Shown one piece after another: positions 53,040 to 57,878 of a stretch of 64,000 bases of DNA (the stretch's first letter is position 1; each line of letters begins with the position of its first letter). Source of the stretch: Candidatus Thermokryptus mobilis (GTDB lineage: Bacteria > Bacteroidota > Ignavibacteria > Kryptoniales > Kryptoniaceae); contig NZ_FAOO01000004.1 in the NCBI RefSeq assembly GCF_900070205.1, positions 115,454 to 179,453 on the forward strand, in the 5' to 3' direction. The translations under genes and the position numbers were made by a program. The notes below the pieces were generated by a model that saw nothing but the letters and a program-made list of their open reading frames with translations, searched no databases and was not told the origin of the DNA.

Positions 53040-53456
53040 TCATATATCAAGAACGAACTCTGCCTTCCAAATCCCGTTTTCCCTTTTAACCTCAAATCTA
53101 TAAAGCGTCACAGCTTTAACATCAGTTCTAAGATGATGTCTCTCTCTATCAATTTTTTCACCCCAAAGTTTTGCCGTCAGATCAAGTTCATTTATCTTAA
53201 CATCAAACCTTGAGAAAAGAAGGGATTCAGCATCCTTTAGATAAATTATCTCGCTTAAAAAATCATAAAGCAACATTTCAATGCTGGTTGAATTAATTGA
53301 AATGTCAAGTTCAATCTTTTGCTCAACCGTCTTAGTGTCAACCATAACTTCGCTCACAGCAAGCCCTGAATCTTGAAATAAACCCTCTATCGTCTCAGCC
53401 CAAACTTCAATTGCCACATCGGCTATGGCGATTTCCTCATTTATCTTAAACGGCAT
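53040..53456 (-). CDS. Archease-like protein
   Basis: A 138-residue protein with the archease pattern: IAIADVAIEVWAETIEGLF (conserved Asp), the VMVDTKTVE loop, LLYDFLSEIIYLKDAE, DRERHHLRTDVKAVT and a final FVLDI aspartate. The usual E-H-T-A-D-V-G has become I-A-I-A-D-V-A, keeping the key Asp. Archease activates the RNA ligase RtcB and sometimes helps RtcA-like chemistry. RtcA is encoded at 30394, but RtcB is not seen here. Confidence 0.87.
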   Translation of the reverse strand: MPFKINEEIAIADVAIEVWAETIEGLFQDSGLAVSEVMVDTKTVEQKIELDISINSTSIEMLLYDFLSEIIYLKDAESLLFSRFDVKINELDLTAKLWGEKIDRERHHLRTDVKAVTLYRFEVKRENGIWKAEFVLDI

Positions 53457-53475: not shown

Positions 53476-54969
53476 TTAAATTATCATCAAGAAGGCAAGC
53501 CCTGACAGAGCTCCAGTGCTTGTACAAACGAAATTAACAAAGTCATTATTCATCCATCTTTTACCGCGGACTAAACTTGTGAAATTGTCGCAGTGAAATT
53601 TTTTCTCCGTCGTCTTTGAACAAACGTTACATTTATACTGCGCTTGTAGAGTTGCTCCAATGAAGCTGTCAACAAATCCACCGAACAAACCGGAAAGGAC
53701 CACAACAAGTAGTCGCGCGAAATTAAATTTAACCCAAAGCATGGCACTTGAAAAAATTATAATTGAGCCGATAAGCCCACCAACCGAACCTTTAAGTGAA
53801 ACCGCACCGGATGTCCCGGGTTCAACCCGTTTGAAATTTGTAAGCAATCTTGGCTTTGTGGGGAAAAGCGTACCAATCTCCGTCGCCCAGGTGTCAAAGG
53901 TAGCTGCTGAAATTGAGCCAAGATAAGCAAAGTAGAAAATCTCGTTTTGAAGGAATTGATATATAACCGCGGTCAAACCAGCTATCCCGCCATTTGCCAT
54001 AACTTGATAAATATCCCTAGTGCTTGACTTTTCAAAGATAAGATCAAAGTTTTCTTTTTTCTTTTTCCCAATTTTTGAGATTAAACTTGACAGGACAAAG
54101 AAGGCGAGAATCGGCAAAGTCCATTTCCAACCGCCAACACCAAAAATTATAACCGCAAGTATAAAGGTGCCAACAGCACCGTTCAAGGATAAAAACTTTA
54201 ATTTGAAAGATATAGCCGCAATTAAAATCGCAAGGGCAAAAGCGATCAAAAATTGGTTCAACCCATCCACTACGACAAGTGAATAAAGCATAAATGATGA
54301 AGAAATCGGTATGAATAAATTATCAAATCCGTATGAACCAATCGCTTCAAAAACAGTCGTAAACAAAGCAGTTAAAATTGAAATCAAGATTATATCTTCA
54401 CCAGATAACGCAAGGGTTTTCCCCCACCATTGAATTGAATCGCTTGTGAAGTAAAGGAAAATGGCAACTATGAACGCTGTTGTCAAAAACATCGCAACTG
54501 AGCCCTGGATTGACTTTTTATCCCCCGTCAAATTGTATATCTTTGGATTTTTCACGCTCTCCCCAACTATAGCTGCTAAGGCATCGCCGAGCGCAAGAGC
54601 TAACATTGAAATTGAAATTATCGCCGGATGGTTTTTCCAAAAAACCAAGACAAGTATTAAAAAAGCAAGCGGATAATAAACCGTTCCAAAAGTTTGTCTT
54701 TCAACGGAATCCATCCCTTTGAAAAGTCGCATTTTTATGCTCAAGAAGTTAACAACGATGAAAATTAAGGCAATTGCTATCATTGGAAGTGAACTTGAAA
54801 AGATTATCGGCGCTGGAAAAACAGCTACACCAACGGATATATGCACAACTTTCCTTGTAACCTCTGGATCAAGCTTAAAAATTCCCCTGAGAATTTCAGA
54901 TATTGCGATCACCCCGAAGATTGAAATTACAAGAAGGAAAGCCCAAAGCCAGTCCAATTTCCCCTCCAT
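53476..54969 (-). CDS. Phytol/dolichol kinase-DUF92 fusion membrane protein
   Basis: A 497-residue, many-helix protein made of two enzyme-like halves. Half one (1 to about 235) is a VTE5/Sec59-type lipid-alcohol kinase: TRKVVH (38-43), GDALAAIVGE (129-138), KSIQGS (152-157), E208 and DN (216-217). Half two is DUF92 (VTE6/TMEM19-like): GGIAGLTA (328-335), FDTWATEIGT (358-367), EPGTSGAVSLKG (383-394) and GGFVDSFIGATLQAQY (430-445), with a Cys pair at 447/450. In plants VTE5 makes phytyl phosphate and VTE6 makes the diphosphate, so this fusion may do both steps on an isoprenoid alcohol. Confidence 0.88.
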   Translation of the reverse strand: MEGKLDWLWAFLLVISIFGVIAISEILRGIFKLDPEVTRKVVHISVGVAVFPAPIIFSSSLPMIAIALIFIVVNFLSIKMRLFKGMDSVERQTFGTVYYPLAFLILVLVFWKNHPAIISISMLALALGDALAAIVGESVKNPKIYNLTGDKKSIQGSVAMFLTTAFIVAIFLYFTSDSIQWWGKTLALSGEDIILISILTALFTTVFEAIGSYGFDNLFIPISSSFMLYSLVVVDGLNQFLIAFALAILIAAISFKLKFLSLNGAVGTFILAVIIFGVGGWKWTLPILAFFVLSSLISKIGKKKKENFDLIFEKSSTRDIYQVMANGGIAGLTAVIYQFLQNEIFYFAYLGSISAATFDTWATEIGTLFPTKPRLLTNFKRVEPGTSGAVSLKGSVGGLIGSIIIFSSAMLWVKFNFARLLVVVLSGLFGGFVDSFIGATLQAQYKCNVCSKTTEKKFHCDNFTSLVRGKRWMNNDFVNFVCTSTGALSGLAFLMII

Positions 54970-54970
54970 T

Positions 54971-55717
54971 TTATTTTACGGTGAAGATGAAAGTTACAAT
55001 TCCGTTTTGTTTAAATTGCTGGTCAATCGGGTTGAATTTCCAAGTCATCAATGCCTCAAAAGCTGAACGCTCAAATTCCGGGTTTGATTTTTCAATCGGG
55101 AAGACCCTTTCAATACTACCGTCTGGTAAAACCACAACCCTAAACCTCACCATTGCTGTTTCATTTACGCCTTCAGGAAATTTCGGAAGTTCGCCTTTTA
55201 ACTTGGTTCGGTTTATTTTCCCCTCCCATTCAATTCTATATGAAAGCGATTGTTTCAATCCAGTGCCAAAATCTCGTTTGATCTCTCCGATACCTGTTTT
55301 CCCTCTCTCAGAAGAGCCAAGCTCTGGTTTAATCTCTTTACCCAAACTTGCATCTTCAAAAAAACCTTTATGTCCGGTTCCAGCTATTTCCCCGGGTTTT
55401 TCAATATCACTGATTTTTTCAGCGAATTTTTCAGAAGGTATTATTTCCTCACCTGAAATTGTGAATCTCGTCGGGAGATTTATCCTTGGGAGATTTGTCG
55501 TCTTTATGGCGATTGAACTTTTAAGTCCTCTTCCAGTTTTTGATTGATCGGGCGATTCGTCTTGTTTTATCTCTTCAAAGGATTGAGCGAAGATGACCTC
55601 GTTAAATTTGACACTTTCTTTCGGTTCAATTGTAAGTTTGTAAAACAGCATAACTATGAAAATCACAAGACAAACAACAGCGGTGTAAAAAGCGGATTTT
55701 ATTTCAACGTCCTTCAT
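54971..55717 (-). CDS. TonB-family energy transducer
   Basis: A 248-residue protein with one N-terminal membrane helix (about 10-28), a Glu/Lys/Gly-rich periplasmic region and a TonB C-terminal domain (about 155-248) with VVLPDGSIERVFPIEKS and FERSAFEALMTWKFNP. With ExbB/ExbD it uses the proton gradient to energise outer membrane receptors. It is 4 bp from exbD. No TonB-dependent receptor lies in the window, and the FadL-type porin does not need it. Confidence 0.93.
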   Translation of the reverse strand: MKDVEIKSAFYTAVVCLVIFIVMLFYKLTIEPKESVKFNEVIFAQSFEEIKQDESPDQSKTGRGLKSSIAIKTTNLPRINLPTRFTISGEEIIPSEKFAEKISDIEKPGEIAGTGHKGFFEDASLGKEIKPELGSSERGKTGIGEIKRDFGTGLKQSLSYRIEWEGKINRTKLKGELPKFPEGVNETAMVRFRVVVLPDGSIERVFPIEKSNPEFERSAFEALMTWKFNPIDQQFKQNGIVTFIFTVK

Positions 55718-55721
55718 CCTT

Positions 55722-56120
55722 TTATCTCAATTGTGTTGCGACTACAAATCTTGTCAAACCAGTTGCTCTTGCTATATCCATGACATCAATCACTTCCTGT
55801 ATCGCTACGTTTTTATCTGCGCGTAAAACGACAAGTTTATCGGTTTGTTTTTTTGAAACCTCGGTTAATTTCGCCGATAAATCTTCTTTCTTTACTTTTT
55901 CGTTGAAAACATAAATTTCTCCGTTTGATGTCAAAGTGATTATTATGTTTCTATCGCTTATTTGTTCCCTCGTTTCGGCTTTTGGGAGTTGAATTCTTAT
56001 GCCAGATTGAGTTATGAAGGACGATGTGAGAAGAAAGAAAATCAGCAGTAGAAGAACTATGTCGGTCAGGGAAGCAAATGTAAAAATCGTTAATGGTTTA
56101 TTCCTTGTTTCAAATTTCAT
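55722..56120 (-). CDS. ExbD/TolR-family protein
   Basis: A 132-residue protein with one membrane helix (about 10-32) holding the conserved Asp in SLTDIVLLLLIFFLLTSSF (first residues), then a periplasmic domain with LRADKNVAIQEVIDVMDIA. It forms the proton channel with ExbB. It is 1 bp from exbB. Confidence 0.95.
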   Translation of the reverse strand: MKFETRNKPLTIFTFASLTDIVLLLLIFFLLTSSFITQSGIRIQLPKAETREQISDRNIIITLTSNGEIYVFNEKVKKEDLSAKLTEVSKKQTDKLVVLRADKNVAIQEVIDVMDIARATGLTRFVVATQLR

Positions 56121-56121
56121 T

Positions 56122-56760
56122 TCAAGAGCCGAGCTTGTTTTTTATTTCGTCTGAGCCAAGTATATCAATGAATTCAAATGTCGCGTTTTCAATTTCATAA
56201 ACAAGGCGGTTTATCTTCGTGACGAAATAATTGTAAAGTCCATACGCTGGAATCCCAACGATTAGACCGTAAGCAGTTGTCAAAAGTGCTTCCCATATTC
56301 CTCCGGCTAAATCCGAAGGGGAAACAATTCCGCCAAGCGATTGGATTGTCATAAAAGCATTTATCATCCCAGTTACAGTTCCAAGAAAGCCAAGAAGTGG
56401 AGCGATACCGGCAATTGTTGCAAGTATGCTTAATCTTTTCTCAAGCATAAAAACTTCGCTTCTTCCAGCCATTTCAATTGCTTCACGAACCCTTTCATCT
56501 CCTAGACCAATCTTTAAAAGTCCTTGTTTGAATATCCTTGATATAGGCGTGTTATATGAATTGCAGTAATCTATTATTTCAGGAACATTTCCTGACCTTA
56601 TCAAACCTTTAATGCTTGCGATGAAGTCCCTGACATTTGCCCTCGCTCTTTTTAGCACAAGAATTTTTTCAATGGTGACATAAATCATCACTACAAACAA
56701 GATTGAAATCAAATGCATAATTAAACCGCCTTTTAAATAAATGTCAAGCAATCTCATCAT
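56122..56760 (-). CDS. ExbB/TolQ/MotA-family proton channel protein
   Basis: A 212-residue protein with three membrane helices (about 15-30, 110-135 and 155-180). The family loop LSILATIAGIAPLLGFLGTVTGM (first part) and an IWEALLTTAYGL segment are typical. The start codon overlaps the stop of the Rsm22 gene (TAATG); a second ATG follows directly. It forms one block with exbD and tonB. Confidence 0.95.
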   Translation of the reverse strand: MMRLLDIYLKGGLIMHLISILFVVMIYVTIEKILVLKRARANVRDFIASIKGLIRSGNVPEIIDYCNSYNTPISRIFKQGLLKIGLGDERVREAIEMAGRSEVFMLEKRLSILATIAGIAPLLGFLGTVTGMINAFMTIQSLGGIVSPSDLAGGIWEALLTTAYGLIVGIPAYGLYNYFVTKINRLVYEIENATFEFIDILGSDEIKNKLGS

Positions 56761-57878
56761 TACCCTTTGATTTTATTCAAAATTTTTCCTTCGTTGTTTA
56801 AAACCTTTTTTATCTGTGTTTCTGGCGTGATTTTAATTTTGTCTTTTTCTGTTTCAAAATTTGTCATCGTTATTATCTCATAGCGAGAAATTTCATCAAA
56901 AACTTCATTCTGAGGAGAATTTGTTCTGTCAAGCTTAACACAATGCAATCTTCCAAGTTCATTGCAAAGATAACAATGTTTCTTCCCTTTTTCAACTATC
57001 AGCTGACTTACGATCCTGAAGTAGTCCGTGAAGTTTCTTTCACCAGCGATGTAATCTATCAGATTTATGTCTTGTTTTGTTGCAACTATGTACGAGAATT
57101 TCAATGTCCTTCTGTAATTTCCCGAGACGAGATCAATTTGTCTTATGAATTCGGGTCTCTTCCAGTCCACTTCAGTATGGCACCAATCCTTTTGTGTTTC
57201 AAGTGCAGGGCAGTTTGAATTTCTAAGGCATGGGGAATAAATGTGAAATCCAAGTTTCAGCATCTTATCCCTGAAATCAAGCAGGTCTCGCGATGTTATC
57301 ATGAGTGCTGGCTCAATTAAAATTACAAAACCATCATCTTTTACACCGGCATTGATAAGGCGAAGGAGTTTATTTCTTTTTTCATATGCAACCTCATTAA
57401 GCGTATTTGCAACCGTTATCAAATCAAATCTTTTGTGGAACATTTCAAAAGCATGTTCAATGTCAAAGATGGCTGGTTCAACTGTTATCTTTATTGAGCT
57501 GGGATAGTGGTTTTTAAGCTCGGAGAGGAAAATCTCAAGGTTCTCTTGAAATTTGTCTATGTTTTGTTTGACTTTATCAAGGGCGACGAATTTAACCTCG
57601 GTATTTTTAAAGTATTTTATATTCTCATGCATCCAAATTATCGCACCCATCACAACTGTCCCAAGACCTGTTCCGATGTCAAGTATTTCAAGATTTTTCC
57701 TTCCTTTGAAAAATCCCGAGTGGGCGATTTCGTTTAATGGGATATGAACTTTTAAGAGATTTGTCGTTGTAAAGTAAATTAGATACCCTTTTTGAACTTC
57801 GGCGTTGCTGAGGTAGTCGTAGAAGACGAATTCCTTCCGCAAGTTTTTCCTTGTGAAATATTCCGACATCGCAGACAC
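56760..57878 (-). CDS. Rsm22/METTL17-family methyltransferase-like protein with cysteine motif
   Basis: A 372-residue protein. The methyltransferase core has ILDIGTGLGTVVMGA (65-79) and the VANTLNEV segment typical of Rsm22. The C-terminal part holds Cys pairs expected for an iron-sulfur cluster: C217, C223 and C233 (in NCPAL and DWCH contexts), and a second set C302, C305, C313. Rsm22 proteins act in small-subunit ribosome assembly. The start is GTG 57878; ATG 57869 is an alternative. Its stop overlaps exbB. Confidence 0.85.
   Translation of the reverse strand: MSAMSEYFTRKNLRKEFVFYDYLSNAEVQKGYLIYFTTTNLLKVHIPLNEIAHSGFFKGRKNLEILDIGTGLGTVVMGAIIWMHENIKYFKNTEVKFVALDKVKQNIDKFQENLEIFLSELKNHYPSSIKITVEPAIFDIEHAFEMFHKRFDLITVANTLNEVAYEKRNKLLRLINAGVKDDGFVILIEPALMITSRDLLDFRDKMLKLGFHIYSPCLRNSNCPALETQKDWCHTEVDWKRPEFIRQIDLVSGNYRRTLKFSYIVATKQDINLIDYIAGERNFTDYFRIVSQLIVEKGKKHCYLCNELGRLHCVKLDRTNSPQNEVFDEISRYEIITMTNFETEKDKIKITPETQIKKVLNNEGKILNKIKG

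Follow-up and report, generated by a model that had tools for sequence, protein, structure and literature searches.

A fused prenol-kinase-type and DUF92 protein in Candidatus Thermokryptus mobilis and its company with archaeal-type ether-lipid genes

The window, i.e., the whole stretch of 64,000 nucleotides of Candidatus Thermokryptus mobilis DNA that was analysed, contains on the minus strand a single ATG-initiated open reading frame of 497 amino acids (53476..54969; ORF analysis), in which an N-terminal domain of the prenol-kinase type is followed by a C-terminal DUF92 domain (PF01940). The start codon is separated by 1 bp from the stop codon of a tonB-like gene (54971..55717, minus; PF03544), which is preceded by exbD (55722..56120, minus; PF02472) and exbB (56122..56760, minus; PF01618), and an archease gene lies downstream (53040..53456, minus; PF01951), giving the operon-like order exbB-exbD-tonB-fusion-archease. 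At the other end of this row, a gene for an Rsm22-like protein of the mitochondrial small-subunit methyltransferase family (56760-57878, minus; PF09243, E = 1.5e-21) adjoins exbB. The adjacency of the fusion and archease is lost outside the close relatives; elsewhere, archease and DUF92 lie far apart or on different contigs. No prenyl genes were found in the gene neighbourhood of the window fusion, and in a survey of 81 loci (80 named loci plus the window, drawn from the best 80 of at least 566 relatives) the commonest partners were exbB (15 loci) and exbD (13 loci), followed by TonB/Tol and housekeeping genes, with BacA, in 6 loci, as the only prenyl-specific neighbour. With such partners, the gene neighbourhood proved uninformative as a clue to function.

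The fusion is neither a sequencing or assembly artefact nor a chance product, because the frame is unbroken in same-genus genomes and in dozens of relatives. It is intact in five further genomes of the genus, at 70-93% identity to the window protein, and was not found in one same-genus genome (G003, 93% complete); the own genome contains a single DUF92 gene. Of 61 relatives, a set that includes the own genome, 46 have a match to the fusion protein, as a full-length fusion in 32 cases, as DUF92 alone in 11 and in pieces in 3. A scan of named genomes yielded at least 566 confirmed relatives, the best 80 of which were kept, a choice that favours fused forms; for 78 of the 80, it extends from residue 36 or earlier to residue 479 or later, and the matches of the remaining two are cut by a contig end. 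The best 80 of the at least 566 relatives come from Ignavibacteria, Calditrichota, Marinimicrobia, KSB1, Chlorobiaceae and others, the nearest named record being Candidatus Chrysopegis kryptomonas (71%), which places the window in the Kryptonia group. Plasmid records contributed two partial matches to the fusion protein.

The C-terminal half (residues 246-487; 53509..54234, minus) belongs to the DUF92/COG1836/VTE6-like family, matching PF01940 over positions 2-251 of the 251-position profile (E = 2.3e-66; 224.2 bits vs. a gathering cut-off of 27.5); its TIGR00297 score of 146.1 bits is below the cut-off of 205.85 of that model, which spans part of the DUF92 family. R318, N326, D359, E364, D434, G438 and N475 are present in all 56 fused and all 26 stand-alone DUF92 proteins that were aligned. 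The same full conservation applies to D, E and G of the D359-x4-E364-x-G366 motif (53872..53895, minus) and to D434 at 53668..53670 (minus). D359 and D434 may be the paired aspartates that are meant for the DUF92 family in the published description of an archaeal fusion (PMC5898192). A loop of this half also contains C447-x2-C450-x8-H459-C460 (53590..53631, minus), a possible zinc site; the full motif occurs in 45 of the 56 fused and 17 of the 26 stand-alone proteins. The three Chlorobium-like proteins in the alignment lack it, and therefore this putative site cannot be essential family-wide. In the literature, VTE6 is assigned as phytyl-phosphate kinase (PMC9782597), and for COG1836 a role in phytol-phosphate metabolism has been proposed and essentiality in Synechocystis reported (PMC3223725).

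The N-terminal half (residues 1-240; 54250..54969, minus) was assigned to the lipid-alcohol kinase domains of the VTE5/FolK/PolK type on the basis of a PF01148 match, residues invariant in 18 proteins and the appearance of CdsA in fold searches. When the full-length protein was searched, no Pfam match over this half was obtained at E 0.1; searched alone, it matched PF01148 (CTP_transf_1) with an E value of 0.0031 and 17.8 bits, which is below the 24-bit gathering cut-off, a score that says little about kinship with VTE5. The family motifs are in place: R39-K40-x-x-H43, D129, G136, K152, E208, D216-N217 and P221 are all present, the RKxxH clamp being taken from a study of Plasmodium PolK (PMC10849223) and the other residues being those conserved within the set of proteins examined. 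In the clamp itself (R39-K40-V-V-H43; 54841..54855, minus), R is kept in 52, H in 51 and K40 in 40 of the 56 fused proteins, while each residue of E208...D216-N217...P221 (54307..54348, minus) is kept in 53 of them; taken together, R39, H43, G95, D129, G136, K152, G156, E208, D216, N217 and P221 are conserved in 51-55 of the 56. RKxxH was proposed as a 'charged clamp' for the Plasmodium enzyme, which is needed for the use of farnesol and geranylgeraniol (PMC10849223). Thus, the sequence-only reading, which had described one polypeptide uniting a VTE5-like kinase with a VTE6-like DUF92 domain, both with their family motifs, is borne out by the single 497-residue frame, the PF01940 match, the clamp, the conserved Asp, Lys and Glu residues and the DN..P motif of the N half, together with D359, E364, D434 and N475 of the DUF92 half.

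An AlphaFold2 model of the full-length protein has a pLDDT of 88.7 and a pTM of 0.89. Foldseek against the PDB placed the CDP-diglyceride synthase CdsA first (probability 0.99, E = 0.027), and so did VIA-align, on residues 18-235 of the N half, with a Z score of 8.6 (rmsd 5.5, 176 aligned residues) at which chance level is not excluded. For the DUF92 half modelled alone (pLDDT 89.8), CdsA 4q2e was again first by Foldseek (probability 0.98, E = 0.015), whereas VIA-align ranked a TRIC channel first (Z 7.1, rmsd 4.2, 132 aligned) and CdsA second (Z 5.9, rmsd 3.4, 126 aligned). CdsA is a CTP enzyme that acts on lipids, and its first place in Foldseek for both halves was counted for the kinase reading. 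Profile comparison of the N half with the DUF92 half gave no significant match (probability 2.1%, E = 0.023), so that the published HHpred link between both halves was not reproduced by this method, and a search of solved structures by sequence returned nothing but ribosomal L30e noise.

We infer both activities, the nucleotide, the substrate, the channelling and the physiological sink as follows. The N half would phosphorylate the hydroxyl group of an isoprenoid alcohol, with CTP as the probable donor, and the DUF92 half would add a second phosphate to the monophosphate, yielding the diphosphate that is used by prenyltransferases; with both halves in one chain, the monophosphate might be handed over inside the membrane. 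The known activities of VTE5 and VTE6 prefer CTP (PMC9782597). Family match, motifs and fold ranking support the reading that one polypeptide could lead from prenol via phosphate to diphosphate, as had been suggested at the outset, and the fusion, which is real and intact, is most likely such a two-step prenol kinase.

Among the closest known systems are the phytol kinase VTE5 and the phytyl-phosphate kinase VTE6 of plants and cyanobacteria and the farnesol kinase FOLK (reviewed in PMC9782597), which represent the same domain families and the same two successive steps; the likeness is one of families and not of directly compared sequences. Unlike the fusion, these are separate proteins with phytol or farnesol as substrate. 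Plasmodium falciparum PolK shares the RKxxH clamp and a multi-helix domain of the N-half type and uses farnesol and geranylgeraniol, but it is a stand-alone protein and is described for the first step only (PMC10849223).

The closest architectural precedent is archaeal. It was published in 2015 by Makarova and colleagues. Methanosarcina Mbar_A3310 was described there as a fusion of a Sec59-like domain with arCOG02245/COG1836, with catalytic Asp residues noted for each half and an isoprenoid kinase step proposed (PMC5898192). By that published description, both proteins have an N-terminal dolichol-kinase-like domain followed by DUF92 in one frame and keep the paired Asp residues of each half, but the present host is a bacterium with a GGGP synthase (GGGPS) gene set and an exbBD-tonB context, whereas uppS is the context reported for the archaeal family (PMC5898192). 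No paper on a bacterial fusion or on a link to GGGPS was found by title or by the start of the abstract in the open-licence literature.

Within the phylum, DUF92 is present in 177 of 296 genomes, and among the matches listed (150 rows) 108 frames have 480 amino acids or more, the size here termed fusion-sized, while 42 have fewer than 300. One family, f29, accounts for 64 of the DUF92-bearing genomes and is nearly entirely fusion-sized; it is Chlorobium-like, given that it shares 79-87% identity with a Chlorobaculum record, and for the proteins of two further families, f27 and f42, the nearest record is one of Thermochlorobacteraceae (58-70% identity). The fusion architecture is thus widespread in the phylum, green sulfur bacteria included, and because it is so widespread and already in print for archaea, the fusion is no surprise in itself. 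Its architecture is ordinary in the phylum and foreshadowed in the literature; what is new is its company with archaeal-type ether-lipid genes.

In Ignavibacteria-like genomes, the fused and the stand-alone form occupy the same gene row, matched by gene sizes and order: an ECF sigma factor, proteins of about 200 and about 159 aa, a TPR protein, the respective DUF92 form, and a TPR protein of about 990 aa. As both forms share this row, the N half was probably gained or lost at a single locus. In the DUF92 tree (82 rows), 12 changes of state were counted, only 2 of which are forced by well-supported branches. A split pair, which the sequence-only reading had named as something to look for in relatives, did not turn up: an N-half gene adjoins DUF92 in none of 20 stand-alone loci, the negative being weaker for two of them (G210 and G037), for which the gene list had dropped overlapping frames, including that of DUF92, although the domain is present. 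Furthermore, of 17 same-phylum genomes with stand-alone DUF92, 16 yielded no N-half relative at E 0.01, and therefore DUF92 can work without this partner. Stand-alone DUF92 is divergent in the genomes of families f35, f28, f37 and f41. In two fusion-sized frames (L187 in G101 and L188 in G110), nearly all conserved N-half residues are gone and DUF92 is intact; their N half might be either a decayed kinase or a domain with a new role.

The own genome contains a GGGP synthase/PcrB gene (G000:C10:52309-52968), a UbiA protein (L173) near the DGGGP synthases, which stays under the cut-offs (214.9 vs. 296 bits for NF009521; 241.1 vs. 269 for NF009523), and a geranylgeranyl reductase above the TIGR02032 cut-off, the best NCBIfam match of which is the archaeal digeranylgeranylglycerophospholipid reductase (272 vs. 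a cut-off of 780). It also has heme o synthase as well as MqnP/UbiA-like, MenA-like and decaprenyl-phosphate phosphoribosyltransferase-like UbiA proteins. Among the 61 relatives, GGGPS is present in 32 and CarS (PF01864) in none; with the geranylgeranyl reductase also found in many of them, the Kryptonia group has an archaeal-type ether-lipid gene set. This resembles the ether-lipid pathway of the FCB group, with genes for GGGPS, a DGGGPS-like UbiA and geranylgeranyl reductase and no CarS; the lack of CarS is reported for Cloacimonetes, and bacterial CdsA is reported to be able to make CDP-archaeol (PMC7852524). In three results sections of the same source, no prenol-salvage enzyme is mentioned as belonging to that pathway.

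The presence of the fusion and of these genes was compared in 232 phylum genomes outside f29, a set that is not equal to 'non-phototrophic' in view of f27 and f42, with fusion-sized status taken among the matches listed. PcrB is present in 40 of the 46 fusion-sized genomes vs. 64 of the 186 others (p = 8e-11), and a geranylgeranyl reductase above cut-off in 36/46 vs. 25/186 (p = 4e-17); of the genomes with stand-alone DUF92, only 8 of 40 have PcrB, again among the matches listed. Among the 61 relatives, PcrB occurs in 26 of 32 with the fusion, 1 of 11 with stand-alone DUF92, 2 of 3 with DUF92 in pieces and 3 of 15 without a DUF92 match. Counts by genus (31/35 fused vs. 43/103 others, p = 1e-6) and by family (15/19 vs. 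7/~34, p = 9e-5, the second denominator being approximate and taken from family labels), both among the matches listed, provide a partial guard against kinship. Within family f10, PcrB is found in 6/6 genomes with an intact N half vs. 3/10 without (p = 0.011), and the reductase in 8/8 vs. 1/8 when G101 and G110 are counted as fused.

It should be noted that archease, taken as an unrelated control gene, is associated with the fusion as well (12/46 vs. 19/186, p = 0.008, among the matches listed), and therefore the p values are inflated by shared ancestry. A tree-controlled test of the fusion against PcrB and geranylgeranyl reductase on the 82-row DUF92 tree yielded 2 independent pairs on starred branches and thus had no power, which is why the association is given only as raw counts. 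Several genomes contradict it: PcrB is missing in 6 of the 46 fused genomes outside f29 (among the matches listed), in all of family f6, and in all 64 genomes of f29, all of which have DUF92, while G101 and G110 have kept DUF92, PcrB and the reductase in spite of the lost N-half residues. Gene content thus suggests a link between the fusion and ether lipids, to which shared ancestry may contribute.

Because GGGPS and geranylgeranyl reductase accompany the fusion, and the own genome contains both together with a DGGGP-synthase-like UbiA, a C20 geranylgeranyl-type alcohol destined for archaeal-type ether lipids is the likeliest substrate. Among the substrates considered earlier, a quinone tail or a long polyprenol is less probable by gene content than this C20 alcohol. 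We therefore regard the fusion, with a probability of roughly 60%, as a bifunctional integral membrane enzyme of prenol re-use, which would act on geranylgeraniol or another C20 prenol and return the diphosphate to GGPP-using enzymes, chiefly the GGGP synthase, DGGGP-synthase-like and geranylgeranyl reductase set of its own genome. A wider proposal is tentative and on the whole doubtful, namely that the FCB ether-lipid pathway includes the fusion as a hitherto unrecognised component, a geranylgeraniol-to-GGPP salvage supplying GGGP and DGGGP synthases, which was reused for the chlorophyll alcohols of green sulfur bacteria.

The same chemistry could also serve phytol or farnesol that is scavenged from hot-spring phototrophs or self-released, with no connection to ether lipids. 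The Chlorobium-like genomes, which have the fusion without PcrB, would fit this, as would the life of Kryptonia as motile heterotrophs of geothermal springs with nutritional deficiencies (PMC4737851); nevertheless, the 40 of 46 fused genomes outside f29 with PcrB (among the matches listed) speak against it, and so do f27 and f42, which are nearest to Thermochlorobacteraceae and have PcrB too, so that phototrophy and PcrB cannot be neatly disentangled. On this evidence, such a salvage is unlikely. It is very improbable, in turn, that the DUF92 half, instead of being a kinase, acts as a cytidylyltransferase and activates the ether lipid in place of CDP-archaeol synthase. The lack of CarS in all 61 relatives, though 32 of them have GGGPS, and the first rank of CdsA in the Foldseek search with the DUF92 model could be read in this way, but CDP-archaeol can come from bacterial CdsA (PMC7852524), VTE6 is an assigned kinase (PMC9782597), and PcrB is missing in 32 of 40 genomes with stand-alone DUF92 (among the matches listed) and likewise in f29.

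If the link of the prenol re-use enzyme to GGGP synthase holds, it would connect the salvage of prenols with the 'mixed membrane' question, i.e., with how some bacteria make archaea-like lipids, which could then be tested by deletion or expression of the fusion gene. Proven prenol and prenyl-phosphate kinases are few and come almost only from phototrophs and apicomplexans, according to the accounts in PMC9782597 and PMC10849223. A single bacterial gene with both predicted steps offers a protein well suited to assays and structural studies.

The same window also contains another N-half relative (1-726, minus). It stands alone, comprises 242 aa in the window, the edge of which cuts the gene, and 263 aa as a frame in the genome, has the RKxxH and DDN..IP motifs and adjoins an ftsH-like gene; similar copies also occur in genomes without DUF92. 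In other families, N-half relatives lie beside DUF3419 genes (L180, L181 and L182 in G250, G318 and G300; L183 on contig 6 of G073; L184 in G112; L185 in G203), with the DUF3419 neighbours Pfam-checked in L180, L183, L184 and L185, and a PEP-utilizer gene is also near in L180, L183 and L184. DUF3419 is presumably BtaA-like, and these loci look like a separate lipid operon. They bear on yet another reading of the fusion, in which its N half would phosphorylate a polyprenol (C50-C55) or diacylglycerol and the whole protein would recycle lipid carriers or phospholipids. Besides the DUF3419 neighbours, the proximity of BacA/UppP in 6 of the 81 fusion loci, the decaprenyl-phosphate phosphoribosyltransferase-like UbiA of the own genome and the N-half motif spacing R-K...D...G, which also fits yeast DGK1, argue in its favour. 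However, the stand-alone relative could do such a job, the DUF92 half would be left unexplained, and long-chain recycling does not predict the GGGPS association, which makes this reading distinctly improbable. In the genomes of family f46 and in G073, the C-terminal part that follows the N half in the same protein matches DUF92 poorly and is perhaps a decayed DUF92.
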